Positions 23,197 to 37,172 of a stretch of 64,000 nucleotides of DNA are shown in pieces; position 1 is the stretch's first letter, and every line of letters begins with the position of its first letter. The stretch lies in the NCBI RefSeq assembly GCF_036345255.1, contig NZ_CP107783.1:744001-808000 (forward strand), given 5' to 3'. The notes beneath the pieces are model-generated. The model ran no database searches. It saw only the letters and a list, made by a program, of their open reading frames with translations, and was not told the DNA's origin. Origin of the DNA: Streptomyces sp. NBC_00569 (GTDB lineage Bacteria > Actinomycetota > Actinomycetes > Streptomycetales > Streptomycetaceae). The translations under genes were made by a program, and so were the position numbers.

Positions 23197-23307
23197 CCGC
23201 ACCGACAGCACCTCTCCGCGAGACGGAAACCTCGGCACTTCGTACAATTTGGCCCCGAACGATACCCTGCCGGGAACGCGCCGCGGTGGCGCCGAAGGAG
23301 TGTGCTC

Positions 23308-23880: not shown

Positions 23881-23898
23881 CCGGCGCCGAGGGCAGCG

Positions 23899-24624
23899 TC
23901 AGCCGTGCGCGCGCGCCGCCCGGACCAGGGCGTCGAAGATGCCTTGCTGCGCGCCGTCCTTCTGTGCCGTGTCCTCCGGATGCCACTGCACTGCGGTGAA
24001 CCAGCCGCGCACCTCCGGGAGTTCGAGCGCTTCCACCGTTCCGTCGGCGGCACGGGCGGTGACCCGTAGTCCGGTGCCGAGCCGGTCCACCCGCTGGTGG
24101 TGGTAGCAGGACGCGTCCACCTTCTCGGTCCCGGTGGCCTGTTCGAGAAGCGACAGGCGCTCGATCGCCACCGGGTGCACGATGTGCCGGTGCTCGCGTT
24201 CGGGGCCGCCCATGTCCTGGTGCAGTGTGCCGCCGAGCGCGGTGTTGACCACCTGGAGTCCCCGGCAGATCGCCAGCAGCGGCATCGCGGCGCCCAGGGC
24301 CTGACGGGCGAGTTCGAGGTCGAAGGCGTCCTGGGTGTCGTCGACGTCGTAGACGCTGGCGTGTGCCGCGGCGACTCCGTAGCGGTGCGGTGCGATGTCG
24401 CCGCCGCCGGGCAGCAGCAGGCCGTCGAAGCGGGCCAGCCGGGCGGCCACCTCGCCGGGGTCGGCGGTTCCGCCGGGCGCGTGCGGGTGGAGGGTGACCG
24501 GTTCCCCGCCCGCGTTCCACACCGCCTCGATCAGGGCGCGTGCGTTGACCTCCGCGGCGTATCGAAGTGCTGAGGTGGAGTCGGCGAAGCGGGCCGGTAC
24601 GGCGATGAGGGGGCGGGTCGTCAC
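23899..24624 (-). CDS. puuD: Class I glutamine-amidotransferase-like gamma-glutamyl-amide hydrolase (PuuD-like)
   Basis: A 241-residue hydrolase with the Cys-His-Glu triad: Cys120 in AICRG, and His215 and Glu217 in WHPED. LLLPGGGDIAPHRYG and GGTLHQDMGG are typical of PuuD, which cleaves gamma-glutamyl-GABA. In aniline pathways a related protein hydrolyses gamma-glutamylanilide. Start GTG 24624 overlaps the stop of the dehydrogenase gene (GTGA), so the two are coupled. Paired with the glutamine-synthetase-like gene at 34480, it could remove the glutamyl group after an amine has been activated. Confidence 0.88.
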   Translation of the reverse strand: MTTRPLIAVPARFADSTSALRYAAEVNARALIEAVWNAGGEPVTLHPHAPGGTADPGEVAARLARFDGLLLPGGGDIAPHRYGVAAAHASVYDVDDTQDAFDLELARQALGAAMPLLAICRGLQVVNTALGGTLHQDMGGPEREHRHIVHPVAIERLSLLEQATGTEKVDASCYHHQRVDRLGTGLRVTARAADGTVEALELPEVRGWFTAVQWHPEDTAQKDGAQQGIFDALVRAARAHG

Positions 24625-26111
24625 AGCTGGATCCAGGTGGTCTTCAGTTCGGTGTACTTCTCCAGCGCGTGGGCGGACTTGTCCCGGCCGTTGCCGGACT
24701 GCTTCATGCCGCCGAAGGGCACGGTGAGGTCGCCCTCCTCGTAGCAGTTGACCCACACCGTTCCGGCCTTGAGGGCGCGGGAGACCTGGTGAGCGGTGGA
24801 CAGGTCGGAGGTCCACAGTCCGGCGGCGAGTCCGTACTCGGTGGCGTTGGCCAGCGCGACGGCCTCGTCGAGGTCGTCGAAGGTGAGGACGGACAGGACG
24901 GGGCCGAAGATCTCTTCTCGGGCGAGCCGCATCCCTGGGTCCACCTCGTCGAAGACGGTCGGCCGCAGGAAGCTGCCGCCGGTGTCGGACAGGGTGCGGG
25001 TGCCGCCGGTGCGCAGTCGCGCACCCTCGCTCGTGCCCGCGCCGATGTGGTCGAGTACGCGGCCGAGGTGGGCCTCGCCGACCAGGGCGCCCATCTCGGT
25101 GGCGGGGTCGAGGGGGTCGCCGACACGCAGTTCACCGGCCCGTCGCACGATCGCCTCGGTGACACGTTCGGCGACGGAGGTGTGGACGAGGAGGCGGGAG
25201 GGTGCGGTGCACATCTCGCCCTGGTTGAAGAAGATCCCCCAGGCGGCGGTCGCGGCCGCCTTCTCCAGGTCGGGGGCGTCGGGCAGGATGATGTTGGGTG
25301 ACTTGCCGCCCAGTTCGAGCCAGACGCGCTTGAGGTTGGAGTCCGCGGCGTAGTGCAGGAAGTGCCGTCCGACGGCCGTCGACCCCGTGAAGGCGAGGAC
25401 GTCGACGTCCGGGTGCAGTCCGATGGCGCGCCCGGCGGTGGGGCCGTCGCCGGTGACGACGTTCAGGACGCCGGGGGGCAGGCCCGCCTCGGTGGCCAGC
25501 CGCCCCAGTCGCAGCGCCGACAGGGGTGAGTTCTCGGAGGGCTTGAGGACGACGGTGCAGCCGGCCGCGAGCGCCGGGGCGACCTTCCAGGAGGCAATGG
25601 TCAGGGGGAAGTTCCACGGGACGACCGCACCGACGACTCCGGCCGGTTCACGGGTGACGAGCGCGAGCGCGTCGGGCGCGGTGCGCGGGGACTCGTCGGT
25701 GAGTTTGTCGGCCAACTGCCCGTAGAAGCGGAAGGTGTTGACGGCGGCACGCAGCTCGATGTCGTACGCGTCCGTGATGGGTTTGCCCATCTCCAGGCTC
25801 ACCGTGAGAGCGAGGCTGTCGCGCCGTTCCTCCAGGAGGTCGGCCAGGCGGAGCAGTGCGCGGCCGCGGTCAACGGGGGCGAGGCGGGGCCACGGGCCGG
25901 CGTCGAAGGCGCGGCGCGCGGCGGCCACCGCGGCGTCGACCTCGGCCACACCACCGTCCGCGACCTGTGCGAGGACCTGTCCGTCACGGGGAGACACGGC
26001 CGCGTAGGTCGCGCCGCCGCCCGGTTCGTCGGCGCCGTCGATGTGGTGGAAGCCGGACAGGTCCAGCTCCTTGGCGCGGCTCAGCCACTCGTCGTGGGTG
26101 AGTTCCAGCAT
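24621..26111 (-). CDS. puuC: NAD(P)-dependent aldehyde dehydrogenase (PuuC-like)
   Basis: A 496-residue aldehyde dehydrogenase. It has VPWNFPLTIASWKVAPALAAG (cofactor site), the glutamate in LELGGKSPNI and the nucleophile Cys in NQGEMCTAPSRLLVH. The C-terminus, PFGGMKQSGNGRDKSAHALEKYTELKT, is typical of gamma-glutamyl-aminobutyraldehyde and betaine-aldehyde dehydrogenases. First gene of a two-gene unit with the PuuD-like hydrolase. A GTTTG-N4-CAAAT operator-like site lies 27 bp upstream of the start, placing it in the TetR-linked regulon. Confidence 0.92.
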   Translation of the reverse strand: MLELTHDEWLSRAKELDLSGFHHIDGADEPGGGATYAAVSPRDGQVLAQVADGGVAEVDAAVAAARRAFDAGPWPRLAPVDRGRALLRLADLLEERRDSLALTVSLEMGKPITDAYDIELRAAVNTFRFYGQLADKLTDESPRTAPDALALVTREPAGVVGAVVPWNFPLTIASWKVAPALAAGCTVVLKPSENSPLSALRLGRLATEAGLPPGVLNVVTGDGPTAGRAIGLHPDVDVLAFTGSTAVGRHFLHYAADSNLKRVWLELGGKSPNIILPDAPDLEKAAATAAWGIFFNQGEMCTAPSRLLVHTSVAERVTEAIVRRAGELRVGDPLDPATEMGALVGEAHLGRVLDHIGAGTSEGARLRTGGTRTLSDTGGSFLRPTVFDEVDPGMRLAREEIFGPVLSVLTFDDLDEAVALANATEYGLAAGLWTSDLSTAHQVSRALKAGTVWVNCYEEGDLTVPFGGMKQSGNGRDKSAHALEKYTELKTTWIQL

Positions 26112-26137
26112 GGTGTGGCCTCCGGCTCACTGAACAT

Positions 26138-26151
26138 GTTTGAGGTCAAAT
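26138..26151. promoter_or_regulatory. GTTTG-N4-CAAAT operator, site 4
   Basis: GTTTGAGGTCAAAT lies 27 bp upstream of the aldehyde-dehydrogenase start. It matches the sites at 27718, 34244 and 34351 in arm sequence and spacing; the right arm ends in T instead of C. Confidence 0.6.
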
Positions 26152-26223
26152 GAAATCGTGTCCGCACGTCGGGGTGCGCCGGCGGCCTGCACGCCGGGCG
26201 CACCCCGACGGGAACGGACGACG

Positions 26224-27690
26224 TCAGGCCGTCGCGCCCCGCCGCGCACGGACAGCCCGGGCCGCGACGGCGCTCAGCACGAGGACGGCCGGGACGCTCA
26301 GCACGAGCCAGGTCGCCGTCTCGGCCGAACCGCCGATGAGTGTCGTGAAGTTGGCCAGGATCACCCAGATCGCGCCCCCGATCCCGAGCGCGCCGAGGGC
26401 CGGGGCGATCAGCGTGTTCCAGGGGCGGATGTCGAGGCGTTCGCGGCGGAAGAAGACGATCACGGAGACCGACGTCAGGAAGTACAGCAGCATCATCGCG
26501 AGGACGGCCACGCCGCTGAACCAGGAGAAGAGGCTCAGCACGGGGTCCTTGCCGAGAAGCGCGAACGGCACGACGAGCAGCAGCGCGAGCGCGGTCTGCA
26601 CGGTGCCGGCGGCCCAGGGCGAGTGGCGCCGGTTGAGCGTGCAGAGCCTGCGCGGGAGCACCCCCTCGCGGCCGAGCGAGAACAGGTAGCGGTTGGCGGA
26701 GTTGTGGAAGGCGAGGATGCCGGCGAAGAGCGAGGTGGCGAGCAGGACCGGCAGGACGTCGCCCGCCCAGCCGCCGAACAGGTCCGCGACGGGCGAGAGG
26801 ACGAACACCACGCCGTCGCCGCCCGCCAGCGCCTTGCCGGCGGCCGCGGTGGCGTGCGAGGCCCCGTAGGCGGAGACGAGCATCCAGGAGGTGAAGGCGA
26901 AGAAGCCGGTGACGACGGCGACGGACAGGTAGGTGGCGCGCGGAACGGTCTTCTTGGGCTCACGTGCCTCCTCTCCGTAGATGGCGGTGGCCTCGAATCC
27001 GAACATCGACGCCACCGCGAACATCAGCGCCACCCCCGGTGCCCCCTGCAGCGCGGCCTTCGGCGAGAAGCTCTCGGCGAAGCCGAGTCCTTCCGGGCCG
27101 CCGCCCTTGACCAGGGTGACCAGGGCGAAGACGAGCAGGATGCTGAACTCGGCGAGGACGAAGACAGCGAGCACCTTGGCGCCCATCTCGATGCCCGCGG
27201 CGCCGAGCACCTGGACGATCACCATCGTGACCACGGCCCAGACCCACCAGGGCGCGTCGAGGCCCGTGTACTGCGCCACGAGCCCGCTCACGATGGACCC
27301 GTAGAGCCCGTACATGGCGGCCTGGATCGTGCAGTAGGCGAAGAGTGCGACACCGGCGCTGCCGGTGCCTGTGGTCCGGCCCAGGCCCCTGCCTATGTAC
27401 GTATAGAAGGCGCCCGCGTCCACGACATGGCGCCCCATGGCGACGAAGCCGACCGAGAAGAGGAAGATCACCGCCCCGGCGACGGCATATCCGGCGGGGG
27501 CGCCCGCGCCGTTGCCGAGACCGACGGAGATGGGGAGGGCGCCTGCGATGCCGGTCAGCGGCGCCTGCGCGGAGAGGACGAAGAAGAGGATGCCCACGAC
27601 GCCGAGGGCGTTGGACTTGAGCTTGCCTGCTGTGGGCGGGTCCTGCACGGTCTGTTGCCTTGTGACCGTCTGACTGTCCACGCGGATCAC
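26224..27690 (-). CDS. APC-superfamily amino acid/polyamine-type permease
   Basis: A 488-residue membrane transporter with about 12 helices. The first contains GVVGILFFVLSAQAPLTGIAG, and the consensus amphipathic loop is FGFEATAIYGEEAREPKKTVPRA near residues 232-254. Relatives carry amino acids, putrescine or other amines. It is transcribed alone. The 14-bp palindrome at 27718 is about 28 bp upstream of its start, so it is probably induced together with the amine-catabolic genes. Confidence 0.92.
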   Translation of the reverse strand: MIRVDSQTVTRQQTVQDPPTAGKLKSNALGVVGILFFVLSAQAPLTGIAGALPISVGLGNGAGAPAGYAVAGAVIFLFSVGFVAMGRHVVDAGAFYTYIGRGLGRTTGTGSAGVALFAYCTIQAAMYGLYGSIVSGLVAQYTGLDAPWWVWAVVTMVIVQVLGAAGIEMGAKVLAVFVLAEFSILLVFALVTLVKGGGPEGLGFAESFSPKAALQGAPGVALMFAVASMFGFEATAIYGEEAREPKKTVPRATYLSVAVVTGFFAFTSWMLVSAYGASHATAAAGKALAGGDGVVFVLSPVADLFGGWAGDVLPVLLATSLFAGILAFHNSANRYLFSLGREGVLPRRLCTLNRRHSPWAAGTVQTALALLLVVPFALLGKDPVLSLFSWFSGVAVLAMMLLYFLTSVSVIVFFRRERLDIRPWNTLIAPALGALGIGGAIWVILANFTTLIGGSAETATWLVLSVPAVLVLSAVAARAVRARRGATA

Positions 27691-27717
27691 CTGCCGGGGA
27701 TGAGGGAGGGGCGATTC

Positions 27718-27731
27718 GTTTCAGGCCAAAC
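27718..27731. promoter_or_regulatory. GTTTG-N4-GAAAC operator, site 3
   Basis: On the minus strand this reads GTTTGGCCTGAAAC, flanked by CTC and GAA. The GTTTGGC left half is identical to the sites at 34244 and 34351. It lies just upstream of the permease gene. Confidence 0.65.
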
Positions 27732-27833
27732 GAGTTGCCCCATAGTCGGATGGGACCCGGCGTTTGGCAAGGCCCTGCGGGATGGTGTTCCGGTTGGGCT
27801 CCACCTGTCCCTCGACCCCGCGGGGGCGAAGGG

Positions 27834-28469
27834 TCAGGCGTCTTCTTCGGAGTCGGCCCCGAGCCCGCGCAGCAGGGACCTCAGCTCCTCCAGAGCGGCC
27901 TCGGTCATCTCCGGTTCGCCCAGCACCAGCTGGTGCAGGACGAGGCCGTCCAGCGCGGCGAAGACGAGCCGCATGAGCGCGGGGCTCGCATCCTTCGGAA
28001 GCATGCGGTTCAACTCGCGCTGGGCCGCGTCGAAGTACTCGTCGTACAGGGTGCGCAGCGGCGGCAGCAGCTCCGGCCTGCGACGGGACTCCAGCATCAG
28101 CTCGTACTGGAACGCCTGCAGGTCCGGGTTGCCGGCGACCATCTCCGACAGCCCTGCCGAGAAGTCCGCGGTCCTGCCGGTGCCGGACTCCATGGCGCTG
28201 GTGTGGAGGCTGGTGTGCACCGTGTGAGCCAGCGCCGCCTCGACGAGGGCGTCGCGGGAGCCGAAGTGGTGCACGACCAGACCGTGGGTGACACCGGCCT
28301 CCTCCGCGACGGCGCGGTAGGTCAGTCTGCGCAGGCCACCGCGGGCCACCACCCGCACGGCGGCGTTCAGGAGCGCGTCACGGCCCGCTCCGTAGTCCAG
28401 CCGTTTGCGCGCTCTGCCACGAGGGCTTCGGCTCGTCTTCTCGTCTGGCGCTTCGGCGGATTCGGTCAC
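27834..28469 (-). CDS. TetR-family regulator, likely controller of the amine/aromatic regulon
   Basis: A 211-residue repressor. The N-terminal helix-turn-helix is GLRRLTYRAVAEEAGVTHGLVVHHFGSRDALVEAAL near residues 45-80, and a ligand-binding all-helical domain follows. It lies between the permease gene and the six-gene ring-cleavage operon, both on its strand. No copy of the GTTTG-N4-CAAAC site was seen at its own promoter, so it may not autoregulate, but it is the only unassigned DNA-binding protein inside the cluster. The MarR gene at 23308 is an alternative controller. Confidence 0.9.
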   Translation of the reverse strand: MTESAEAPDEKTSRSPRGRARKRLDYGAGRDALLNAAVRVVARGGLRRLTYRAVAEEAGVTHGLVVHHFGSRDALVEAALAHTVHTSLHTSAMESGTGRTADFSAGLSEMVAGNPDLQAFQYELMLESRRRPELLPPLRTLYDEYFDAAQRELNRMLPKDASPALMRLVFAALDGLVLHQLVLGEPEMTEAALEELRSLLRGLGADSEEDA

Positions 28470-28582
28470 GTCAGGGACCCTACCTAGCCCGCGGTGGCTG
28501 CTCGTCGTTCGCGCAGCACCGCGCTCGGGCGCCGCGCCGGGCGGCTTCGGAGCCGGCCCGGCACGGCACGGTTCGTGATCCG

Positions 28583-29431
28583 TCAGCCCCGGTGGGGCGG
28601 GCGGATGCCGCGGAACTCCCAGTCGCCGCCCAGAGCGGTGGACAGGACCTCCTCGGACTCGGTGGGCTGGGCGCCCACGTCGGAGCGGATCGCGGTGGGG
28701 CCGGTGACGATGTGGTTGGTCAGCCGCCCCAGGCCCTCCACCTCCACCTCGACGATGTCACCGGGCTGTACGGGACGTGAGTTCGCCGGTGTGCCGGACA
28801 GCAGCACGTCGCCGGGGTACAGCGTGATGGTGCGGGCGATGTCGGCCACGAGGTAGTGCATGTCCCACTCCATCTCCGCGGTCGAGCCGTCCTGCACCAC
28901 CTCTCCGTTGACGTAGGTGCGCAGGTACTTGTCGTGGAAGTCCCAGTCGGTGACCAGGCCCGGGCCGAGCGGGCACAGCGTGTCGGAGCCCTTCACCCGC
29001 AGCATGGACCCCGCGTCGGTGTCGCGGAAGTCGTGCAGGCCGTAGTCGTTGGCGACCGTGTAGCCCGCGATGTACTCCCCCGCGTCGGCCGGCGAGATGT
29101 TGCGCGCCGTCCTGCCGATCACGATGGCGACCTCGCCCTCGTAGTTGAGCCACTTGCAGCCCTCGGGGCGCACGATCGCGCCCTTGTGGGCGTTGAGGGC
29201 CGAGGTGGGCTTGTGGAAGTACGTCGGGGTGGGCGTCAGCTCGATCTGGAACTCGTCGACGCGGCTGCGGTGGTTGAGATGGACGGCGACGACCTTCGAG
29301 GGGACGACCGGGGGAAGGTGCTGGGCGTCCTCCACCTTGACGCGGCGGCCGTCACCGGCGACCAGTTCGTCGTCCTCGCGGAGGACCTGGACGGCCGCGC
29401 CGTCCAGGAGGATGCGGCGGTACTCGGGCAT
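28583..29431 (-). CDS. hpaG: Fumarylacetoacetate hydrolase-family protein, HpaG-like isomerase/decarboxylase
   Basis: A 282-residue FAH-fold enzyme. The metal-binding signature includes WLNYEGEVAIVIGRTARNI (ligand Glu residues) and YTVANDYGLHDFR (ligand Asp). The ending GDVLLSGTPANS...PGDIVEVEVEGLG is diagnostic. In homoprotocatechuate degradation, HpaG-type enzymes decarboxylate and isomerise the ring-opened acid. Last gene of the operon that starts at 34134; 10 bp separate it from the dioxygenase gene. Confidence 0.9.
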   Translation of the reverse strand: MPEYRRILLDGAAVQVLREDDELVAGDGRRVKVEDAQHLPPVVPSKVVAVHLNHRSRVDEFQIELTPTPTYFHKPTSALNAHKGAIVRPEGCKWLNYEGEVAIVIGRTARNISPADAGEYIAGYTVANDYGLHDFRDTDAGSMLRVKGSDTLCPLGPGLVTDWDFHDKYLRTYVNGEVVQDGSTAEMEWDMHYLVADIARTITLYPGDVLLSGTPANSRPVQPGDIVEVEVEGLGRLTNHIVTGPTAIRSDVGAQPTESEEVLSTALGGDWEFRGIRPPHRG

Positions 29432-29441
29432 GAGGGGGCTC

Positions 29442-30386
29442 CTAGGCGCGGCGGTGGGGGTTGTGCGGGGCGGGTCGTGCGGGCAGGCCGCTGCCGGTCC
29501 AGCCGCCGGCGGGGCGGTCGAACCACAGGTGGACCTGGCCGGTGCCGATCGAGTTCTCGTACTCGCCGTACTGGCGTGCCCTGGCGACGCAGGCGCGCTC
29601 GCCGAGGGCGCCCGCCATCATCAGGTAGTGGAAGAACTTGGCCTCGGGCTTGAACTTCCAGAACTCGGCCATCGTGTCGATGACCTTGTCGTGGCGGCCT
29701 TCCTTGAACCAGGCGATGCGTTCGTGGTCGGCCTCGCGGGCCTCGGGGGTGAAGATGTGCGCGGGGTCGCTCGATTCGTGGTCACGCAGTTGCCGCAGCG
29801 GCCAGAAGGTGTGCGACAGGGCGCCCGAGGCGATGAGCAGGACGCGGCGGCCCGGGGTGGCGGCGATACCGTCGGCGAGCGCTCGTCCGAGGCGCAGGTG
29901 GTCCTCCATGTCACCGGTCTGGCAGACGCCGATGGTGACCCACTTCTTGTCGGGCAGGCCCTCGCCGAGGAACTTCCACAGGTTGGTCGTGGCGTAGTAG
30001 ATCGGCAGGTACGGGTCGTCGATCGCGGTGATCCAGGTCCCGTGCTTGTCCGCGAACCCGGCTATGTTCTCGGCGAGTTCCGGGTCGCCCGGGAAGTCGT
30101 AGGGCATCCGGCACATGCCGCGCGGCAGTTCTTCGGAGGTGAAGAGGCCGGCCCGGCGCTGCTGGGCGGTGACGACGAATTCGACGGTGGTGGCCCAGTG
30201 CGAGTCCAGGACGACGACGGTGTCGTACTCCTGGGGGGCATCCCGCTCGAAGACCTCGCGCCGCAGTTCGTGCAGGCCGGTGACGAGGGTGATCTCCTTG
30301 CCCTCGTTCAGTTCCAGGCGTGTCTCCTGCGGGAGCACGACGGTGGGCACGTGGGCGAGCAGCCCTGCCCCGACGATCTCACCCAT
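29442..30386 (-). CDS. hpaD: Class III extradiol dioxygenase, homoprotocatechuate 2,3-dioxygenase-like
   Basis: A 314-residue LigB-type ring-cleavage enzyme. Its layout follows enteric HpcB/HpaD: iron-ligand His in LLAHVP and VVLDSHW, then FTSEELPRGMCRMPYDFPGDPEL, an active-site His in ASGALSHTFWP and the terminal SIGTGQVHLWF. The reaction is extradiol opening of 3,4-dihydroxyphenylacetate or a related catechol. It overlaps the preceding dehydrogenase gene by 8 bp. A C-terminal tail of about 25 residues is low in complexity and not conserved. Confidence 0.9.
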   Translation of the reverse strand: MGEIVGAGLLAHVPTVVLPQETRLELNEGKEITLVTGLHELRREVFERDAPQEYDTVVVLDSHWATTVEFVVTAQQRRAGLFTSEELPRGMCRMPYDFPGDPELAENIAGFADKHGTWITAIDDPYLPIYYATTNLWKFLGEGLPDKKWVTIGVCQTGDMEDHLRLGRALADGIAATPGRRVLLIASGALSHTFWPLRQLRDHESSDPAHIFTPEAREADHERIAWFKEGRHDKVIDTMAEFWKFKPEAKFFHYLMMAGALGERACVARARQYGEYENSIGTGQVHLWFDRPAGGWTGSGLPARPAPHNPHRRA

Positions 30387-31842
30387 GGTCCCGCCAGCCC
30401 TTCGGCGCCGTCACTGTGTTCTTGAGGTCGCAGTAGAAGTCGAAGCTCCAGGTGCCTCCCTCGCGGCCCACTCCGGAGTGCCGGGAGCCGCCGAAGGGTG
30501 CTTGGAGGTCGCGTACGAAGAAGCAGTTGACCCAGACCGTGCCGGCGACGAGCCGGTCCGTGACGCGCTCGGCGCGCCCGCGGTCGCCGGTGGCGACGGT
30601 CGCGGCGAGCCCGAATCGGGTGTCGTTGGCCAGGCGGACCGCCTCGTCCTCGTCGGTGAACGTCTGCAGGGTCAGGACGGGGCCGAAGACCTCCTCCTGC
30701 ACGATCTCGGAGTCCTGGGCGACATCGGTGAGCAGGGTCGGCGCGTAGTACTGGCCTTCGCCCCGTCGGCCGCCGATGACGGCGCGGGCGCCGGCGGCGA
30801 GGGCCCGCTGCACGAAGCCGTCGATCTTCTCCAGCTGGCGGGTGTGAATGGTGGGGCCGATGTCCGTGGTCTCGTCGCGCGGGTCTCCCTGCCGCAGGGC
30901 CGAGGCCTTCTCGGTGAAGCGTCGGGTGAACCCCTCCGCGATCGTCTCCTCGACGAGGATGCGGGTCGCGGCCAGGCACACCTGTCCGGCGTTGTCGTAC
31001 TGCTCGACGGCCAGGTCGACGGCGAGGTCGAGGTCGGCGTCCGCGAACACCAGCAGTGGTGACTTCCCGCCGAGTTCGAAGCTGGCGGGCACCAGGTTGG
31101 CGGCTGCCGCGGCGGCGATGGTCTTCGCGGTGGGCACCGATCCTGTGAAGCTGATGCGGCGCACGTCGGGGTGGGTGACGAGGGCGCTGCCGGCCTCGGC
31201 GCCGTAGCCCTGCACGACGTTGAGGACTCCGGCGGGGAGTCCCGCCTCGGCGGCGATGTCGGCGAACACGGAGGCGGTGAGGGGCGACCACTCGGCGGGC
31301 TTGAGGATCACGGTGTTGCCGGCGGCGAGCGCCGGGGCGATCTTCCAGGTGGCCAGCATCAGAGGTGCGTTCCACGGGGTGATCAGCACGCAGGGGCCCG
31401 CCGGGTCCCAGCTGACGTGGTTGGTGTGGCCGCGGGTGTCGAAGTCGTCGTGGCCGAGGCCCACGAGCCAGTCGGCGAAGAAGCGGAAGTTGTGCGCCAC
31501 GCGTGGCATCACTCCGCGCCGGTGCGAGCGCAGCAGGGCGCCGTTGTCGTGGGTCTCGACGATCGAGAGGTCCTCGATGCGCTTCTCGACGGCGTCGGCG
31601 ACGGCGTGCAGGATCCGGGCCCGCTCGGCGCGCGGGGTGGCCGCCCAGCCGGGGAAGGCCGCGCGGGCCGCGGCGACGGCGGCCGACGCTTCTGCCGCCG
31701 TGCCGCGGGCGATCTCGCCGAGGACGCTCCCGTCGATCGGCGAGACGTCCACGAAGGTGTCGGCGGAGGCGACGCGTTCGCCGCCGATCCAGTGCCGGGT
31801 GTCGACGGTGACACCGGCCACGGTGAGGGTGTGTTCGCTCAT
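30379..31842 (-). CDS. hpaE: Aldehyde dehydrogenase, HpaE-like (carboxymethyl-hydroxymuconate semialdehyde type)
   Basis: A 487-residue aldehyde dehydrogenase with ITPWNAPLMLATWKIAPALAAG, Glu in FELGGKSPLLVF and Cys in DNAGQVCLAATRILVEE. It ends FFVRDLQAPFGGSRHSGVGREGG, a form common in hydroxymuconic-semialdehyde dehydrogenases. The partner ring-cleavage and FAH genes support the HpaE role: oxidation of the semialdehyde made by the dioxygenase. ATG 31842 has GGAG 7 bp upstream; the frame up to 32061 is shadow sequence. Confidence 0.9.
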   Translation of the reverse strand: MSEHTLTVAGVTVDTRHWIGGERVASADTFVDVSPIDGSVLGEIARGTAAEASAAVAAARAAFPGWAATPRAERARILHAVADAVEKRIEDLSIVETHDNGALLRSHRRGVMPRVAHNFRFFADWLVGLGHDDFDTRGHTNHVSWDPAGPCVLITPWNAPLMLATWKIAPALAAGNTVILKPAEWSPLTASVFADIAAEAGLPAGVLNVVQGYGAEAGSALVTHPDVRRISFTGSVPTAKTIAAAAAANLVPASFELGGKSPLLVFADADLDLAVDLAVEQYDNAGQVCLAATRILVEETIAEGFTRRFTEKASALRQGDPRDETTDIGPTIHTRQLEKIDGFVQRALAAGARAVIGGRRGEGQYYAPTLLTDVAQDSEIVQEEVFGPVLTLQTFTDEDEAVRLANDTRFGLAATVATGDRGRAERVTDRLVAGTVWVNCFFVRDLQAPFGGSRHSGVGREGGTWSFDFYCDLKNTVTAPKGWRDHG

Positions 31843-31876
31843 GTCCAGTCTCCAAGTGGCATGTGGTGGGCGGGAG

Positions 31877-32683
31877 TCACTCGGCTCCGGAGGTGCCGGA
31901 CTCGAGCAGCGTGCCGCCGTCCCACACGACGCCGACCTGCCGGTAGTAGGCGGCGATCGGCTCCCTGATCTCCAGTCGGGCCAGCTCCTCGGTGGGCGCT
32001 TCGAACAGCTCCAGCTCCGCGTCACCGATCCACGCCTGACCGGCCTCGAAGGACGCGGCACCGGTCTCGATCAGCTCGTCGAGAGCCAGTCCCTTGCCCT
32101 TCTCGACGGAGGGCAGCCAGCGGTGGTGGGCCATCGGGTGGCTGTTGACGAAGCCGTTGGTCTCGGACGGTTCGCGCAGGGTGACCACGGCCTGCGCCAG
32201 GCGGCGGTCGGCCGCGGCGAGGGTCGCGCCGAAGCGGGCGCCGGCTTCGATCCGCGGGGCGGGCCCGTAGGGGTGGGGGCGGGTCTGGTGGATGGAGCCG
32301 AGCTTCTTCGGGTAGCCCTGGTGCAGGCCGCGCGCGACGGCGAAGTCCTTGTCGACCCAGATGTACACGCAGCGTGAGTAGGTGCGGCCCTTGTACTGGC
32401 AGCGCACCACCGCGAAGGCTTCCTTGTACTGGGCGAGCACGGGGTCGAGCAGCTGGCTCCCGTCCGCGGCGCAGGACTGCCAGTCGGCCCAGATCAGCGC
32501 GACGGCGCCGGGGTCGTCGTCGGCCGGCTCCAGGGGTTCAGGCAGGAGTTCACGCACCCGGGCGGGGTCGGTGCGGTACTCGACGGTGAGCAGGTCGCCG
32601 GAGTAGTGCCACGGCGGGGAGGGAATCAGCGAGGCGTCGCCGGTCGCCGTCTTGGGGTGGAAGTATCCACGGACGCTGGCCAT
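31877..32683 (-). CDS. Acetoacetate decarboxylase-family protein
   Basis: A 268-residue protein of the acetoacetate decarboxylase fold. It contains YSRCVYIWVDKDFAVARG followed by GYPKKLGSI, where the lysine pair corresponds to the Schiff-base site (EPKK in the classical enzyme). Relatives include decarboxylases and Schiff-base dehydratase/aldolases of unknown role. Its place between the reductase and the dehydrogenase suggests it acts on a keto acid of the ring-cleavage route, perhaps in place of the usual hydratase or aldolase, neither of which is present. Confidence 0.85.
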   Translation of the reverse strand: MASVRGYFHPKTATGDASLIPSPPWHYSGDLLTVEYRTDPARVRELLPEPLEPADDDPGAVALIWADWQSCAADGSQLLDPVLAQYKEAFAVVRCQYKGRTYSRCVYIWVDKDFAVARGLHQGYPKKLGSIHQTRPHPYGPAPRIEAGARFGATLAAADRRLAQAVVTLREPSETNGFVNSHPMAHHRWLPSVEKGKGLALDELIETGAASFEAGQAWIGDAELELFEAPTEELARLEIREPIAAYYRQVGVVWDGGTLLESGTSGAE

Positions 32684-32696
32684 GACTGGGGGTTCC

Positions 32697-33944
32697 TTAC
32701 GAGATGAGGGCGGGCTGCGCGAGGAGCTGGGCGCGGTAGCGGGCGGCACCGGTGGTGGCGGCGGGGCCGCCGAGCGCGACCACCCCGACGAGCCGGTCGT
32801 CGCAGTGGTAGCCGACGAGGACGTCACCTTCCGGGTCGCCGTCCAGGACGCGCACGTCGGCGATGCCGAGGGCGGGTGCGCCGAAGGACTGCAGCCGGAA
32901 CTCGTGCTGGTCGCTCCAGAAGGTGGGCAACGGGGCGAACGGCGCGGGCTGCGCCACGCTGCCGACGAGATGGGCCACGAGGCTCTTCGCGGCGTGCTTG
33001 GCGGTGTCGGTGGGGATCGACCAGTGCTCGACGCGGCGGGGTACGCCGTCGTAGCGGGCGTTGGGGAAGCGGGCGACGTCGCCGACGGCGACGACGTTCG
33101 GGTGGCCGCCGACGCGCAGCTGCTCGTCGGTCAGGACCCCGTCGGACAGATCCAGGCCGTTGCCGTCCAGCCATTCGGTGTTGGCGACCGAGCCGACGGA
33201 CTCCACGACCACATCGGCCGGAAGCACCGTCCCGTCGGTCAGGACGACACCGGTCACCCGGTCCTCGCCCTCCAGGCCCGCGACACCCACGCCGAGGGCG
33301 AAGCGCACGCCGCGTTCCTCGTGGCGCCGGTGCAGCGAGCGGGCCAGGAGTTCGCCGAGCGGGCGGAGCATCGGCAACGGCTCGGGGTCGACCACCGTCA
33401 CCTCGCCGACGCCGAGGCCCTTGGCGGTGGCGGCGACCTCGCAGCCGATGAAGCCCGCACCGATGACGACGACGCGAACGCCGGGCCGGGTCAGTTCGTC
33501 ACGCAGGCCCCGGGCGTCGGCGAGGGTTCGCACGGTGTGCCGGCCGCTGCCGGGACCCGAGGGACCGTCGCAGCGCAGTCTGCGCGGCCGCATTCCGGTG
33601 GCGACGACCAGACCGTCGAAGGCGAGTTCCGTACCGTCGTCGAGCCCGACGACGCGCTCGTCGAGGCGGGCGGAGGCAACGGTCGTGCCCAGCCGCCACT
33701 CGACGTCCGCCGCGCTCGCGCGGGGCGTGAACGCGAGCGACTCGAAGGATGCGGTACCGGCCAGCACGTCCTTGCTCAACGGCGGCCGGTTGTACGGCAT
33801 ATGGGGCTCGTCGCCGATGACCGTGATCGTGCCCGTCCAGCCGGCTGCGCGCAGCTGTTCGGCGGCGCGCAGGCCGCCCATCGAGGCACCGGCCACGACG
33901 ACGCGCCCCGGACTCCGGGGGACGCCGTGTCCCGTCTCGGCCAT
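32697..33944 (-). CDS. FAD-dependent ferredoxin reductase
   Basis: A 415-residue pyridine-nucleotide-disulfide-type reductase. It has an FAD-binding N-terminus (VVVAGASMGGLRAAEQLRAAG), YNRPPLSKDVL, an NAD-binding motif (VVIGAGFIGCEVAATAKGLG) and an FAD site EQLRVGGHPNVVAVGDVARF. The C-terminal FWSDQHEFRLQSFG is typical of P450 and dioxygenase electron-transfer reductases. It starts 1 bp after the ferredoxin gene. Together they should pass electrons from NAD(P)H to the P450 encoded divergently at 35886. Confidence 0.93.
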   Translation of the reverse strand: MAETGHGVPRSPGRVVVAGASMGGLRAAEQLRAAGWTGTITVIGDEPHMPYNRPPLSKDVLAGTASFESLAFTPRASAADVEWRLGTTVASARLDERVVGLDDGTELAFDGLVVATGMRPRRLRCDGPSGPGSGRHTVRTLADARGLRDELTRPGVRVVVIGAGFIGCEVAATAKGLGVGEVTVVDPEPLPMLRPLGELLARSLHRRHEERGVRFALGVGVAGLEGEDRVTGVVLTDGTVLPADVVVESVGSVANTEWLDGNGLDLSDGVLTDEQLRVGGHPNVVAVGDVARFPNARYDGVPRRVEHWSIPTDTAKHAAKSLVAHLVGSVAQPAPFAPLPTFWSDQHEFRLQSFGAPALGIADVRVLDGDPEGDVLVGYHCDDRLVGVVALGGPAATTGAARYRAQLLAQPALIS

Positions 33945-33945
33945 C

Positions 33946-34134
33946 TCAGGCCTCGATCCGGATGGCCTGCAGCGGACACACGTCGGCGGCTTCCTCGACC
34001 TCGTCGCGCAGCGCGTCGTCGGGGTCGCTGACGTAGGCGAGGCGCCCGGTGTCGTCCAGCTGGAAGACGTCGGGGGCCGAGAAGACGCACTGTCCGTGGT
34101 CCTGGCACTTGTTCATGTCGACGACGACCTTCAT
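33946..34134 (-). CDS. Small P450-type ferredoxin (3Fe-4S class)
   Basis: A 62-residue ferredoxin starting MKVVVDMNKCQDHGQCVFSAPDVF. Cluster ligands are Cys10, Cys16 and Cys53; the position of a second-motif Cys is taken by His13 (C-x2-H-x2-C...CP). This arrangement is common in actinobacterial ferredoxins encoded beside cytochromes P450. First gene of the six-gene operon; the promoter region carries two operator-like palindromes. Confidence 0.93.
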   Translation of the reverse strand: MKVVVDMNKCQDHGQCVFSAPDVFQLDDTGRLAYVSDPDDALRDEVEEAADVCPLQAIRIEA

Positions 34135-34243
34135 GGCCGGTCCTCCTGGAGGTGAGGGCGTCGGGGCGCACTGAGGGAAGTGGGGCCCGGCTCCGTGGCC
34201 GGGCCCCTGCCAAAGGGGTACGGATGGCCGCACTCCCCAACTC

Positions 34244-34257
34244 GTTTGGCTTCAAAC
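34244..34257. promoter_or_regulatory. GTTTG-N4-CAAAC operator, site 1
   Basis: GTTTGGCTTCAAAC, flanked by CTC and AAC. Perfect 5-bp arms. It is nearer to the ferredoxin operon, 110 bp upstream of its start. Confidence 0.7.
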
Positions 34258-34350
34258 AACATAAGAAGCGAACGGACCCTGGTCAAGAGCTATCCAGATG
34301 GATAAATTCTTTCCCTGCACCCCTTGCGGAGCGGTGCGGCCGTCCATACC

Positions 34351-34364
34351 GTTTGGCACCAAAC
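34351..34364. promoter_or_regulatory. GTTTGG-N2-CCAAAC operator, site 2
   Basis: GTTTGGCACCAAAC has perfect 6-bp arms, the best copy in the window, and shares the AAC flank with site 1. It lies 116 bp upstream of the GS-like gene start. Confidence 0.72.
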
Positions 34365-34479
34365 AACGGGTGGACGCCGGTCTGGCGTCCGCAGCCCGAC
34401 GCCGGGCCCTCGCCGGGCGGGCCACCCCGCCCGGCTGCCGGCCACCACGCCCCCGTTCACATCCGCCGAGGAGACATCG

Positions 34480-35856
34480 GTGAGCGCTCAAGACACCCCA
34501 GAAGTCCGCACCGCCATGGACCGGCTCGCCGCCGACGGCATCGACGTGGTCCGGGTGACGTACCCCGACCTGATCGGCACCGACCGCGCCCGTGACGTCC
34601 TGCTCGACCATCTGCCCTCGGCCTGCGACCACGGCCTCGCCTTCTGCCGCGCGGTCTACCACACCACCCCGCAGGGCGGCGTGGTCCCGGTCCGGGGCGG
34701 CCTCGACGCGGGCCTTCCCGACGTGACCGTACGACCCGACCTCTCCACCGCCCGCGGGCTGCCCTGGGAGCCGGGCGTCGCCTGGTGCCTGGGCGAGACG
34801 ACCGACCCCGCGACCGGCTCCCCCAGCCCGGAGTCCCCGCGCGATCTGCTGCGCTCGGTGCTCGCCCGCTGCACACAGGCGGGGCTGCGACCTGTCGTCG
34901 GCCCCGAGCTCGAGTACTTCCTGCTCGAACAGGACACGGCCGCGCCGACCGGCTGGCGCCGCTACGGACAGGGCGTCGCCGGGGTCGTCTACACGGCCGG
35001 ACTGCGCGCCGACGCCGAGAACCACCTGCTGCCCACCCTGCGCAAGCTGCGCGATCTCGACATCGGCGTCATCAGCGCGAACCACGAGTTCGACGCGGGC
35101 CAGTTCGAGATCAACCTGACCCACTCAGAAGCGATGGACGCCGCCGACCGCGCCTTCCTCTTCAAGGCGGCCGTCAAGGAACTCGCCCGCAAGGACGGGA
35201 AGTTGGCCACCTTCATGGCCAAGCCCTTCAACGACGCGGGAGGCTCCGGCTTCCACCTCCACTTCTCCGGCGAAGCCGCCGGTGACTCCGTCGCCGAGGA
35301 GGGCGGCAACGTCTTCGACGACCCCTCGGGCGCCTACGGTCTGTCGGACACCGCCCGCCACGCCATCGCCGGCATCCTCGCCCACGCACCCGCGCTCGCG
35401 GCCCTGCTCAACCCGACCGTGAACTCGTACAAGCGCTTCGGACCCGACACGCTCGCGCCGTGGCTGATCGACTGGGGCCTCGACAACCGCAGCGCCATGG
35501 TCCGCATCCCGCCCGAGCGCGGTTCCGGCGCCCGCCTGGAGCTCCGGCTCGGCGACGCCAGCGCCAACCCCTATCTCGCGACCGCGGCGCTGTGCGCCGC
35601 CGCGCTCCTCGGCATCCAGGACGGCAAGGAGCCGCCGGCGCCCCTGGAGGGCTACGGCTACGACCCCGAGAAGTCCCAGATGCTGCCGACGACCCTGCCC
35701 GCCGCACTCGACGCCCTGGAAGCGGACGACGCGCTGACCGAGGTCCTCGGCAAGGACTTCACCGAGTCCTTCCTCACCTACAAGCGCGACGAGGTCGACC
35801 GCTTCAACCACCACGTCACGGACTGGGAGTTCACCGAGTACTCCTACCACCTCTGA
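34480..35856 (+). CDS. Glutamine-synthetase-like gamma-glutamylamide ligase
   Basis: A 458-residue member of the glutamine synthetase family. ATP/metal motifs are GPELEYF (141-147), NHEFDAGQFEINL (201-213), AKPFNDAGGSGFHLHFS (247-263) and NSYKRF. It lacks the adenylylation tyrosine loop of true GlnA I-beta. Its context with a P450, ferredoxin and a gamma-glutamyl hydrolase points to ATP-dependent glutamylation of an amine, as for PuuA (putrescine), the aniline GS-like proteins, or the mor/pip GS proteins. Start GTG 34480 has GAGGAG in good position. It is 29 bp upstream of the P450 gene. Confidence 0.9.
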   Translation: MSAQDTPEVRTAMDRLAADGIDVVRVTYPDLIGTDRARDVLLDHLPSACDHGLAFCRAVYHTTPQGGVVPVRGGLDAGLPDVTVRPDLSTARGLPWEPGVAWCLGETTDPATGSPSPESPRDLLRSVLARCTQAGLRPVVGPELEYFLLEQDTAAPTGWRRYGQGVAGVVYTAGLRADAENHLLPTLRKLRDLDIGVISANHEFDAGQFEINLTHSEAMDAADRAFLFKAAVKELARKDGKLATFMAKPFNDAGGSGFHLHFSGEAAGDSVAEEGGNVFDDPSGAYGLSDTARHAIAGILAHAPALAALLNPTVNSYKRFGPDTLAPWLIDWGLDNRSAMVRIPPERGSGARLELRLGDASANPYLATAALCAAALLGIQDGKEPPAPLEGYGYDPEKSQMLPTTLPAALDALEADDALTEVLGKDFTESFLTYKRDEVDRFNHHVTDWEFTEYSYHL

Positions 35857-35885
35857 CCTGCCGCACCACCTTCAGGAGCACCCTC

Positions 35886-37172
35886 ATGACGAACCCGACC
35901 GACGCCCTCGACCCGACCGAACCCATGCCGCTCGCCGACGTCGACCTCGCCGACCTCGACAACTTCACCGACGGCGTCACCCCCTGGCGCATGTTCCACA
36001 CCCTGCGCCACGAGGACCCGGTCCACTGGCAGCCGGAAGAGGCCCCCAACTCGGGCTTCTGGGCCGTCACCCGGCACGAGGACATCGCACGCGTCGACCG
36101 CGACGCCGAGACGTTCACCTCCACCAAATTCGTCAACCTCGAAGAGGTGGACGACGACCAGATCAAGACCCGCGCCTCGATCCTGGAACTCGACGGAGTG
36201 CGTCACCGCGCGATGCGCAGCCTGCTCCAGCGCCAGTTCGGCGCGAGCGTCATCAACAGCTACACCGACTTCCTGCGCGGGCTGACCGCCAAGACCCTGG
36301 ACACGGCGCTCGCCAAGGGCAGCTTCGACTTCGTCAAGGAGGTCTCCGCCGACTTCCCCATCAACGTACTGGCCCGCCTCCTGGACGTGCCGCCGGAGGA
36401 CAACCAGCAGCTCATCGACTGGGGCAACCGGATCATCGGCAACACCGACCCGGACTACGCGGACGTGCTCCTCGGCAGCGAGGAGAGCGAGAAGTACCGC
36501 CACCTGCCGTTCCGTTCCCCCGCCTCCCTCGAAGTCTTCGAGTACGGACGCGAGTTGGCCCGTCAGCGACGCGGCGGAAACGGCACCGACCTGGTCTCCA
36601 AGCTCGTCAACGAGACCCCCCGCGACGGACTGCCGCTGTCCGGACAGGACTTCGACAACTACTTCCTGCTCCTCGTGGTCGCCGGCAACGAGACCACCCG
36701 CCACACCATCACGCACTCCATGCTGGCACTGCTCCAGCACCCCGAGCAGCTGGCCCGCCTCCAGGAGGACCCCTCTCTGATCCCGACGGCGGTCGAGGAG
36801 TTCCTGCGCTGGGCGTCCCCCGTCTACCACTTCCGCCGCACCGCGACCCGTGACGTCGAACTGGGCGGGAAGCAGGTCAAGGAGGGCGACAAGGTCGTCA
36901 TGTGGTACGCCTCCGGCAACCGTGACGAGAAGGTCTTCGGCAACCCGTACGACTTCGACGTCGCCCGCGCGGACAACGACCACGTCACCTTCGGCAAGGG
37001 AAGCCCGCACCTGTGCCTGGGCAACCTCCTTGCCCGCACCGAGATCCGCATCATGTTCGAGGAGCTGATCCCGCGCCTGGCCGGCATCCGCCTCACGGGC
37101 GAGGTGCCGCGCGTCCGCTCCAACTTCGTCAACGGAATCAAGAAGCTCCCCGTGGAGGTCACACTGGCCTGA
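35886..37172 (+). CDS. Cytochrome P450
   Basis: A 428-residue soluble bacterial P450. The oxygen-binding I-helix motif is AGNETTR (266-272), the K-helix ExxR is EFLR (305-308), and the heme loop is FGKGSPHLCLG (369-379) with axial Cys377. The sequence around TFTSTKFVNLEE and PVYHFRRTATRDVELGG fits the class I actinobacterial P450s related to terpene- and steroid-oxidising groups; no CYP family is assigned. It needs a ferredoxin and reductase, supplied by the divergent operon. Encoded with the GS-like ligase. Confidence 0.94.
   Translation: MTNPTDALDPTEPMPLADVDLADLDNFTDGVTPWRMFHTLRHEDPVHWQPEEAPNSGFWAVTRHEDIARVDRDAETFTSTKFVNLEEVDDDQIKTRASILELDGVRHRAMRSLLQRQFGASVINSYTDFLRGLTAKTLDTALAKGSFDFVKEVSADFPINVLARLLDVPPEDNQQLIDWGNRIIGNTDPDYADVLLGSEESEKYRHLPFRSPASLEVFEYGRELARQRRGGNGTDLVSKLVNETPRDGLPLSGQDFDNYFLLLVVAGNETTRHTITHSMLALLQHPEQLARLQEDPSLIPTAVEEFLRWASPVYHFRRTATRDVELGGKQVKEGDKVVMWYASGNRDEKVFGNPYDFDVARADNDHVTFGKGSPHLCLGNLLARTEIRIMFEELIPRLAGIRLTGEVPRVRSNFVNGIKKLPVEVTLA

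Follow-up and report, generated by a model that had tools for sequence, protein, structure and literature searches.

A gamma-glutamyl-tagged catabolic route proposed for tyramine-type amines in a conserved Streptomyces gene cluster

Introduction

The gamma-glutamyl-putrescine (Puu) pathway of Escherichia coli (PuuA-PuuB-PuuC-PuuD) resembles the gene cluster described here in its tagging of an amine by a glutamine synthetase (GS)-like enzyme, in its terminal PuuC- and PuuD-like enzymes and in the GABA exit that we predict; gamma-glutamyl-4-aminobutanal is a known PuuC substrate. Unlike the Puu pathway, the cluster is without a PuuB oxidase, and we predict that its aldehyde arises when an aromatic amine is ring-opened and then split in a retro-aldol step. 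The HpaDEFGHI meta-cleavage pathway for homoprotocatechuate (HPC; 4-hydroxyphenylacetate degradation) shares with the cluster extradiol cleavage, a dehydrogenase and an FAH-type decarboxylase, in the same order, but the cluster has a LigB-type enzyme under the HpaD cut-off, carries an acetoacetate-decarboxylase (ADC)-like protein where HpaI was not found, and has a predicted substrate bearing a gamma-glutamylaminoethyl side chain. By sequence, the nearest solved structures to this ADC-like protein are MppR and Sbi00515, ADC-like aldolases with the same PK lysine motif, the lysine of which has a Schiff-base role in proteins of this type. MppR and Sbi00515 have a known role in forming such bonds, not in breaking them, whereas the cluster protein, which scores under the MppR cut-off, is predicted to work in the degradative direction within a meta pathway. 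When DOPA undergoes extradiol cleavage, as on the way to betalamic acid and lincosamide precursors, the amine cyclizes onto the ring-opened aldehyde. Finally, the amine ligases GlnA3 and GlnA4 of Streptomyces and PauA7 of Pseudomonas have the GS fold with loss of the flap Glu and the ammonia-pocket Tyr (for GlnA4 and PauA7 according to the accessible part of PMC6529630); the cluster GS differs in keeping D50 and in being linked to ring cleavage instead of an amine oxidase.

Results and discussion

The cluster lies in a window of 64,000 nucleotides from Streptomyces sp. NBC_00569 (NZ_CP107783.1, positions 744,001 to 808,000), to which all coordinates below refer. All families named by an initial annotation were recovered with Pfam and NCBIfam where it had placed them, and the interval 23899..37172 contains 12 genes; a 13th, for a MarR-family regulator (23302..23880, plus strand; nearest NCBIfam model HpaR, 48 bits versus a cut-off of 121), lies immediately beyond it and is probably part of the cluster. 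Also on the plus strand, the gene for the GS-like ligase (34480..35856; GTG start behind GAGGAGA) is followed by that for a cytochrome P450 (35886..37172). Divergent from these, on the minus strand, are the genes for a single-cluster ferredoxin (33946..34134; Pfam), a ferredoxin reductase (32697..33944), the ADC-like protein of the MppR/Sbi00515 clade (31877..32683; supported by alignment), an HpaE-like aldehyde dehydrogenase (30379..31842; supported by a residue check), the LigB-type extradiol dioxygenase (29442..30386) and an FAH-fold protein resembling the C-terminal part of HpaG (28583..29431). The same strand continues with a TetR-family regulator (27834..28469), present in 73 of 80 Streptomyces-type loci, an APC-family permease (26224..27690) that is a candidate amine importer, a PuuC-like aldehyde dehydrogenase (24621..26111) and a PuuD-like peptidase C26 resembling gamma-glutamyl-GABA hydrolase (23899..24624), the GTG start of which overlaps the PuuC stop.

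Conservation as one unit

This cluster is real and is a single unit. Among 150 same-genus genomes, LigB (at least 74% identity) and the GS-like ligase (at least 64%) occurred in an identical set of 34, which places the grouping far beyond chance, in a Fisher test that ignores relatedness among genomes; the GS/P450 and Hpa parts thus co-occur in the genus, so that the initial annotation is not refuted by its own condition that homologous clusters never keep them together. A full-length P450 was present in 31 of the 34, and the 116 other genomes held, as their sole case, a partial P450 (88% identity) in G352, without LigB or GS. ADC-like copies (at least 79% identity) and PuuC-like copies (at least 73%) were found in 33/34 and 30/34 cluster genomes, respectively, and in 0/116 others, PuuC being restricted to cluster genomes even when on a separate contig (e.g., in G413 and G378).

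Departures from this layout, which weigh against the route proposed below, were found as well. No GS was found within 20 kb at one locus (L029), and two loci (L139 and L140) were without PuuC and PuuD nearby, their genomes (G349 and G385) having no cluster-type PuuC. In G158, G177 and G256, the best PuuC match shares a contig with LigB at a distance of 19 to 24 kb; a second GS is close by, and this PuuC may therefore serve that one. In clusters of other genera, PuuC is located outside the locus. Outside the class, the ADC and FAH genes were each present in only 6 of 14 loci, and the in-locus GS is only 34 to 43% like the window GS, hardly above the window genome's own GS paralogues (32 to 36%). 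LigB relatives are encoded in at least 580 stretches of one-per-species genomes; the use of any LigB homologue as a cluster marker was rejected, since LigB proteins of 56 to 58% identity in G312, G339, G351 and G353 had no partners around them, the sole other match being a 28% P450 in L138.

In a Streptomyces variant, the P450 is exchanged for an aromatic-amino-acid-type decarboxylase. Of 86 Streptomyces loci with GS and LigB, 78 had only the P450, 5 only a decarboxylase, none both and 3 neither; L022 to L024 repeat the contigs of L050, L053 and L054, so that these tallies and the catalytic-residue counts below include a few duplicates. Two loci (L121 and L141) carry neither gene. Six P450-less Streptomyces loci carry the decarboxylase, the nearest solved structures of which are tyrosine decarboxylases; its best PDB matches are 5hsi, 6ebn and 7cwx, of which 5hsi and 7cwx are tyrosine decarboxylases. 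In this variant, the genes for HpaE, LigB, FAH, the PLP decarboxylase, ADC, PuuC and PuuD can run consecutively on one strand (L060, L085 and L088). Five loci from other genera have, alongside the P450, a decarboxylase of a second type (about 33% identity to the first), best matched by 7xin (named "DOPA decarboxylase"). A decarboxylase replacing the P450 is what would be expected for entry at DOPA or dopamine.

A shared operator-like palindrome

The operator-like palindrome CGTTTG-N4-CAAAC was found in promoters of both halves of the cluster. Its only two exact copies on the chromosome (34241..34258 and 34348..34365) lie between the ferredoxin and GS genes, in their divergent promoter, and pattern matching placed a one-mismatch copy upstream of the APC permease gene (27716..27733) and a degenerate one upstream of that for PuuC (26136..26153). 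Allowing at most one mismatch, the operator was present between GS and ferredoxin in 71/71 loci, between TetR and APC in 51/54 and between APC and PuuC in 23/65, against 0/74 and 3/80 coding control regions; in L142 and L144, the PuuC and HpaE genes diverge and the operator is found between them. In a shuffle test, the window's 9 matches with at most two mismatches were equaled in 1 of 100 shuffles, a post hoc result since the pattern had been derived from the window before counting; we therefore gave weight to the cross-locus counts, the TetR-less loci and the exact chromosomal copies. Together with the co-occurrence across the genus, an operator common to both halves favors the proposal, already made in the initial annotation, of one regulon.

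As for the cognate regulator, TetR was set aside, since the operator is retained in TetR-less loci that carry MarR. This persistence makes MarR the likelier shared regulator and a candidate for control of the whole unit, with MarR found in only 45 of 80 loci. In the Streptomyces form, no operator was seen immediately before either regulator gene (FAH to TetR, 0/73; PuuD to MarR, 0/40).

Catalytic features of the encoded enzymes

The HpaD-, HpaE-, HpaG-, PuuC- and PuuD-like labels hold as resemblances, but each protein scores below its NCBIfam equivalog cut-off: LigB reached 117.1 of 315.95 bits with the LigB-type HpaD model TIGR02298, the HpaE-like protein 539.6 of 638.35 with TIGR02299, the FAH protein 209.6 of 276.4 with TIGR02303 (HpaG decarboxylase domain), and the PuuC- and PuuD-like proteins 559 of 850 and 80 of 266, these last two models still being their best NCBIfam matches. 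The GS-like ligase likewise fell below the PuuA model NF045547 (269 versus 650 bits), and the ADC-like protein fell below the MppR equivalog (174 versus 380). Catalytic residues are intact throughout: H12, H63, H192 and E248 of LigB in 122/122, the FAH metal ligands in 115/115, the PuuC-like catalytic Cys in 82/82 and the PuuD-like Cys-His-Glu in 88/88. The lysines of the QGxPKK motif, aligned with those of MppR and 6eej, were found in 111/111 ADC-like proteins.

The GS-like ligase keeps the core catalytic residues (four positions counted) and has lost two ammonia-site residues, with Glu at the E327 (flap) position absent in 107/107 and Tyr at the Y179 position absent in 106/106 aligned sequences. 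Both are also missing from PauA7 and GlnA4, which have in addition lost Asp50 (accessible part of PMC6529630); a point against the proposed role is that the cluster GS keeps Asp50, in 106/106 aligned sequences, with one gap.

Membership in the canonical HPC pathway was rejected, as the HpaD, HpaE and HpaG scores lie below the cut-offs and the cluster is without HpaI: PF03328 matched none of the 12 cluster genes, and tblastn with one HpaI-family protein from the same genome matched 0/100 related loci (L022 to L121). With the window FAH protein as query, in place of a proper HpaH query, each of these loci gave one match. The ring-cleavage enzyme of the cluster belongs to the LigB rather than the VOC type; a separate, canonical pair of VOC HpaD and HpaE, both over the cut-off (HpaE, 666 bits), is encoded at about 8.42 Mb. 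Among the 12 genes, Pfam and NCBIfam revealed no amine oxidase and, as to a PuuB-like FAD oxidase, no DAO-family protein, a weak secondary DAO match in the ferredoxin reductase aside.

A proposed protected route and its alternatives

We consider it probable that the cluster is a regulon for the breakdown of tyramine or a closely related phenethylamine (e.g., dopamine), which would be protected, hydroxylated, cleaved, trimmed and deprotected; substrate, reactions and reaction order are all inferred. The amine would be imported by the APC permease and joined to glutamate by the GS-like enzyme at the expense of ATP, giving gamma-glutamyl-tyramine (or, from dopamine, gamma-glutamyl-dopamine). Gamma-glutamyl-dopamine would then be formed by the P450, with ferredoxin and its reductase, through ring hydroxylation ortho to the phenol; the closest sequences to this P450 are of the CYP124/125 type, a likeness that lends phenol hydroxylation no support. 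LigB is predicted to open this ring beside the side chain by extradiol cleavage (cf. the 2,3-cleavage of homoprotocatechuate), after which the HpaE-like dehydrogenase would convert the semialdehyde to the acid and the FAH protein would isomerize and decarboxylate it. The ADC-like protein could hydrate the resulting 2-oxo-enoate and split it into pyruvate and 4-(gamma-glutamylamino)butanal, which PuuC would oxidize to gamma-glutamyl-GABA and PuuD would hydrolyze to glutamate and GABA. The glutamyl tag, retained through ring cleavage, would stop the free amine from cyclizing onto the ring-opened aldehyde.

That the ADC-like protein can fill the hydratase/aldolase gap is suggested by its place in the MppR/Sbi00515 clade. 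In Saccharolobus, induction of a meta-cleavage pathway is accompanied by that of MppR-type ADC proteins, for which a reverse aldolase function has been suggested (accessible part of PMC7820114). With the tag kept on, the retro-aldol product is itself the PuuC substrate, so that no amine oxidase would be needed; HpaH and HpaI would be equally dispensable. Much of the initial interpretation thus survives, namely, the regulon, the amine-glutamylating role predicted for GS from its lost flap Glu and Tyr179, a putative tyramine- or phenethylamine-type substrate and predicted extradiol cleavage; its order of reactions, with deglutamylation before ring opening, and its view of the route as incomplete were not supported.

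In that order, which we regard as unlikely, the glutamylated amine would first be oxidized and deglutamylated, and the Hpa-like enzymes would then open the ring of free homoprotocatechuate, genes elsewhere in the genome providing hydratase and aldolase. The resemblance of the LigB, HpaE and FAH proteins to HPC enzymes and 8 HpaI-family matches elsewhere in the genome speak for it, but the missing amine oxidase, the separate canonical HPC pair, the HpaI-family query without a match in the related loci and the low HpaD score of LigB speak against it, and it offers no role for the ADC gene, which 33 of 34 genomes retain. A tagged route acting on an O- or N-methylated substrate (e.g., 3-methoxytyramine), with the P450 as demethylase instead of hydroxylase, also has little probability, if a trace more. 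The decarboxylase in P450-less loci would suit it, as would VanA/VanB-type oxygenase genes (L028, L030 and L038) and formyl-THF deformylase genes (L032, L033, L035 and L038); the VanA/VanB-type genes, however, accompany the P450 and do not replace it, and no one-carbon gene is constant across Streptomyces-form loci.

Far less probable is an aminophenol route, in which GS would activate an aniline-type amine, the P450 would yield a 2-aminophenol and LigB would act like 2-aminophenol 1,6-dioxygenase. Pairs of GS-like and amidotransferase-like proteins are known for aniline, and LigB weakly matches the dioxygenase structure, but it scores twice as high against that of HpaD (61 versus 32 bits), the FAH protein is HpaG-like, and the aromatic-amino-acid-type decarboxylases and PuuC/PuuD would have no role. 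Equally hard to credit is the mere adjacency of two unrelated units, one a Puu-like set for polyamines and the other HPC-like: PuuC and PuuD are indeed separated from the Hpa-like operon and adjoin the permease, and the best PuuC of G158, G177 and G256 is near another GS, yet the common operator, the co-occurrence of GS with LigB, the restriction of PuuC to cluster genomes in the genus and the single-strand arrangement in L060, L085 and L088 tie the halves together.

Returning to the protected route, we lean, by a small degree, toward its fuller form: a complete actinobacterial tyramine/dopamine pathway, extending beyond one class, in which N-gamma-glutamyl protection lasts through ring cleavage, the ADC-like protein serves as hydratase-aldolase, the products are pyruvate, CO2, GABA and recovered glutamate, and a P450 form (tyramine entry) exists beside a P450-less decarboxylase form (DOPA entry), some genomes having both. 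We found no description of such a pathway in the open-licence literature, including the accessible parts of PMC7820114, PMC6529630 and PMC9397018; subscription papers lay mostly outside this search, so novelty is not proven. If correct, the proposal would explain the role of a widespread, unassigned gene cluster and give ADC-like proteins a testable degradative role. It would also amount to a protecting-group strategy in catabolism, the tag keeping a reactive amine from cyclizing at ring opening, and would predict which actinobacteria need no amine oxidase to degrade tyramine and dopamine.

Organization of the locus

Family scans of positions 23302 to 37172 of the window, which spans 744001 to 808000 of a single 10.3-Mb chromosome (G000:C1), identified genes for MarR, a PuuD-like C26 hydrolase, a PuuC-like dehydrogenase, an APC permease, TetR, an FAH protein, a LigB dioxygenase (whose nearest named relatives, among the matches listed, are from Streptomyces), an HpaE-like dehydrogenase, an ADC-like protein, a ferredoxin reductase (FdR), and a ferredoxin (Fd). 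The glutamine synthetase (GS)-like ligase (34480 to 35856) and the P450 (35886 to 37172) lie on the opposite strand; the gene families named at this place in the initial annotation were thereby borne out. The genes from ferredoxin to FAH almost abut (gaps of 1, 13, 34, and 10 bases and one 8-base overlap), and the start of PuuD is located within the 3' end of PuuC. An LD-carboxypeptidase (S66) gene (37326 to 38354) adjoins the P450; just 2 of 80 loci share it, so that it probably does not belong to the unit.

Against PDB chains, the P450 scored 401 and 396 bits with 8vxi and 8vxg ("CYP125MRCA"), versus at most 253 bits with the other CYP125 chains listed. Elsewhere on the chromosome (~8.418 to 8.420 Mb; L122:12674-15435), there is a separate, canonical homoprotocatechuate pair, with HpaE at 666 bits (cutoff, 638) and a VOC-type HpaD at 388 bits (cutoff, 321).

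Conservation as one unit

The grouping of GS and the Hpa-like genes proposed in the initial annotation recurs in other genomes: among 150 same-genus genomes, counting only hits within each search's E-value limit, LigB (≥74% identity) was found in 34 and GS (≥64%) in the identical 34. A full-length P450 was present in 31 of these, ADC (≥79%) in 33, and PuuC (≥73%) in 30; at those thresholds, neither PuuC nor ADC occurred in any of the 116 genomes outside the 34. In G413 and G378, PuuC is on a different contig from the cluster; its copies were nevertheless confined to cluster genomes in this draw. Outside those sets, one genome (G352) has a partial P450 at 88% identity and six (G321, G339, G354, G408, G410, and G424) have ADC paralogues at ≤44%. 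LigB at 56 to 58% in four further same-genus genomes (L135 to L138) was accompanied by none of the cluster partners.

Class-wide, 20 loci around LigB homologues (6 from the same genus and 14 from other genera) contained HpaE and FAH without exception, ADC in 18, GS in 17, and P450 (≥60% identity) in 16; the three GS-less loci were L031 and L037, on contigs of <10 kb, and L029. Among the best 80 of at least 580 LigB relatives, with loci taken from named genomes (L042 to L121), ADC, HpaE, LigB, and FAH were each present in 80/80, GS in 75, Fd and FdR in 75, TetR in 73, PuuC and PuuD in 72, APC in 70, and the cluster's own P450 (≥55%) in 70. All five loci without GS are shorter than 15.4 kb and start with ferredoxin or ADC. 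A second P450, mostly with a ferredoxin and <35% like the cluster P450, directly follows TetR in some of the Streptomyces loci, namely L023 (6020-7383), L024 (5997-7353), and 15 of L042 to L121.

A phylum-wide draw yielded the LigB family in 23/198 genomes, 20 of the 23 outside the class. Fourteen of those 20 loci were fetched, with HpaE in 12, GS in 9, P450 (≥44%) in 7, ADC in 6, FAH in 6, and a PLP decarboxylase in 7 (in one, at only 29% identity). Whether the out-of-class GS is an ortholog of that in the window is uncertain, because an identity of 34 to 43% hardly exceeds that of the window genome's own GS paralogues (32 to 36%).

In other genera, the best PuuC match falls beyond the fetched locus, being located in G158, G177, and G256 on the LigB contig, 19 to 24 kb off and near a second GS, and in 11 further genomes on other contigs, at 44 to 57% identity. 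In one same-genus genome (G269), PuuC is ~15 kb away, at 80%, and PuuC and PuuD were absent near the L139 and L140 loci. In three other-genus genomes (L124:12584-17036, L125:8375-14233, and L126:8959-14864), PuuC, an amidotransferase, and an additional GS lie no farther than ~25 kb from the cluster, as if a polyamine-type set adjoined it. A second class I glutamine amidotransferase gene, perhaps for another gamma-glutamyl hydrolase, was also observed in or near the cluster in L030 (15291-16022) and 23 more loci, in other genera often next to GS.

A shared operator and its candidate regulator

In the Streptomyces-type loci, we found an operator-like palindrome, GTTTG-N4-CAAAC, frequently with TCG and CGA flanks. 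Allowing one mismatch at most, it occurs in the GS/Fd intergenic region of 71/71 loci (138 sites in total, with 64 loci having an exact copy), in 51/54 TetR-to-APC gaps, and in 23/65 APC-to-PuuC gaps, compared with 0/73 FAH-to-TetR gaps, 0/40 PuuD/MarR gaps, and 0/74 and 3/80 in coding controls. On the whole chromosome, exact CGTTTG-N4-CAAAC is limited to two sites, both within the GS/Fd promoter; with up to one mismatch, 19 distinct places remained after merging of overlapping strand hits, 4 of them in this cluster (hit totals, 25 versus 7 for a reversed control pattern). The operator or a near copy is also retained in some other genera; no copy was observed in L028, L032, L033, L037, or L041, nor in 11 of the 14 out-of-class loci. 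Since TetR-less variants with MarR keep the operator, at GS/MarR, MarR/HpaE, and PuuC/HpaE, MarR, which only 45 of the best 80 (of at least 580) loci contain, is favored as its candidate regulator.

Catalytic residues and the proposed ADC and GS steps

Residues whose functional roles we take from their families were counted with the window included, after exclusion of four LigB paralogue loci, P450 hits at ≤44%, PuuC hits at ≤50%, and hits covering less than half the query. Fully conserved were LigB His12, His63, His192, and Glu248 (122/122), both lysines of ADC QGxPKK (111/111), the FAH metal ligands (115/115), PuuD Cys-His-Glu (88/88), the dehydrogenase cysteines (HpaE-like, 120/120; PuuC-like, 82/82), and the P450 heme cysteine (95/95).

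The window ADC matches MppR (4jm3) and 6eej/4zbo, presumably Sbi00515, at an E value of ~1e-47. According to PMC7820114, two Saccharolobus ADC-superfamily genes are upregulated ~80-fold on phenol, and a possible role in phenol degradation is suggested for them, citing MppR and aldolase reversibility. These genes are the closest precedent that we found for the hydratase/aldolase step (step 7) proposed for ADC.

At the flap glutamate position of GS, Glu is present in 0/107 sequences, and at the ammonia-pocket tyrosine position, Tyr is present in 0/106 aligned; Asp50 is kept in 106/106 aligned. According to PMC6529630, PauA7 and GlnA4 have lost E327, D50, and Y179, and PauA7 is able to glutamylate aromatic monoamines. 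Loss of the flap Glu and the ammonia-pocket Tyr is thus common to those enzymes and the cluster GS, whereas Asp50, lost there, is retained here.

Exchange of P450 and decarboxylase

Streptomyces loci lacking the P450 and its Fd and FdR have a PLP decarboxylase instead (L060, L085, L088, L139, L140, and L144/L145, the last being one locus divided between two contigs). In a set of 86 Streptomyces GS-plus-LigB loci, including a few duplicates, 78 have the P450 without such a decarboxylase, 5 show the reverse, none has both, and 3 have neither (L062, on an 8-kb contig, L121, and L141). One locus of each form is found together in Streptomyces sp. A012304 (L060 and L099), S. dysideae (L085 and L082), and G327. 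The best solved relatives of this decarboxylase are 5hsi and 7cwx, which we take to be the tyrosine decarboxylases of Lactobacillus brevis and Enterococcus faecalis, and 6ebn (named non canonical aromatic amino acid decarboxylase). A second type, ~33% identical to the first and with 7xin (named DOPA decarboxylase) as its best solved relative, stands alongside the P450 in L032, L033, L034, L038, and L041. Because tyramine requires a hydroxylase and dopamine does not, the exchange fits entry via DOPA to dopamine.

In L034 (12730-17355), a decarboxylase is followed by a 538-amino-acid protein that matches no Pfam or NCBIfam family and then by a TPP enzyme; L038 holds relatives of both of the latter. 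A VanA/VanB-like Rieske oxygenase and reductase, as for O-demethylation, adjoin the cluster in L028 (16714-18717), L030 (10484-12497), and L038 (12137-14133). Given the genes for VanA/VanB-type oxygenase, formyl-THF deformylase, and F420-type oxidoreductase near some clusters, methylated relatives may be additional substrates.

A proposed route that retains the gamma-glutamyl tag

In the homoprotocatechuate pathway, the CH2-COOH side chain ends up in succinate semialdehyde through cleavage, oxidation, decarboxylation, hydration, and retro-aldol splitting. With CH2-CH2-NH-gamma-Glu in its place (i.e., gamma-glutamyl-dopamine), equal steps would yield pyruvate and 4-(gamma-glutamylamino)butanal, a C4 aldehyde predicted to be obtainable from an arylethylamine only. 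In the putrescine pathway, as outlined in PMC9397018, this aldehyde is the substrate of PuuC, and its acid is that of PuuD; the PuuC substrate of that pathway is thus the very aldehyde predicted here after ring cleavage. In L060, L085, and L088, HpaE, LigB, FAH, decarboxylase, ADC, PuuC, and PuuD are aligned on one strand, with GS divergent, an order that would place PuuC and PuuD immediately after ring cleavage. A route in which the gamma-glutamyl group put on by GS stays in place would employ all enzymes of the cluster and would make amine oxidase, HpaH, and HpaI unnecessary.
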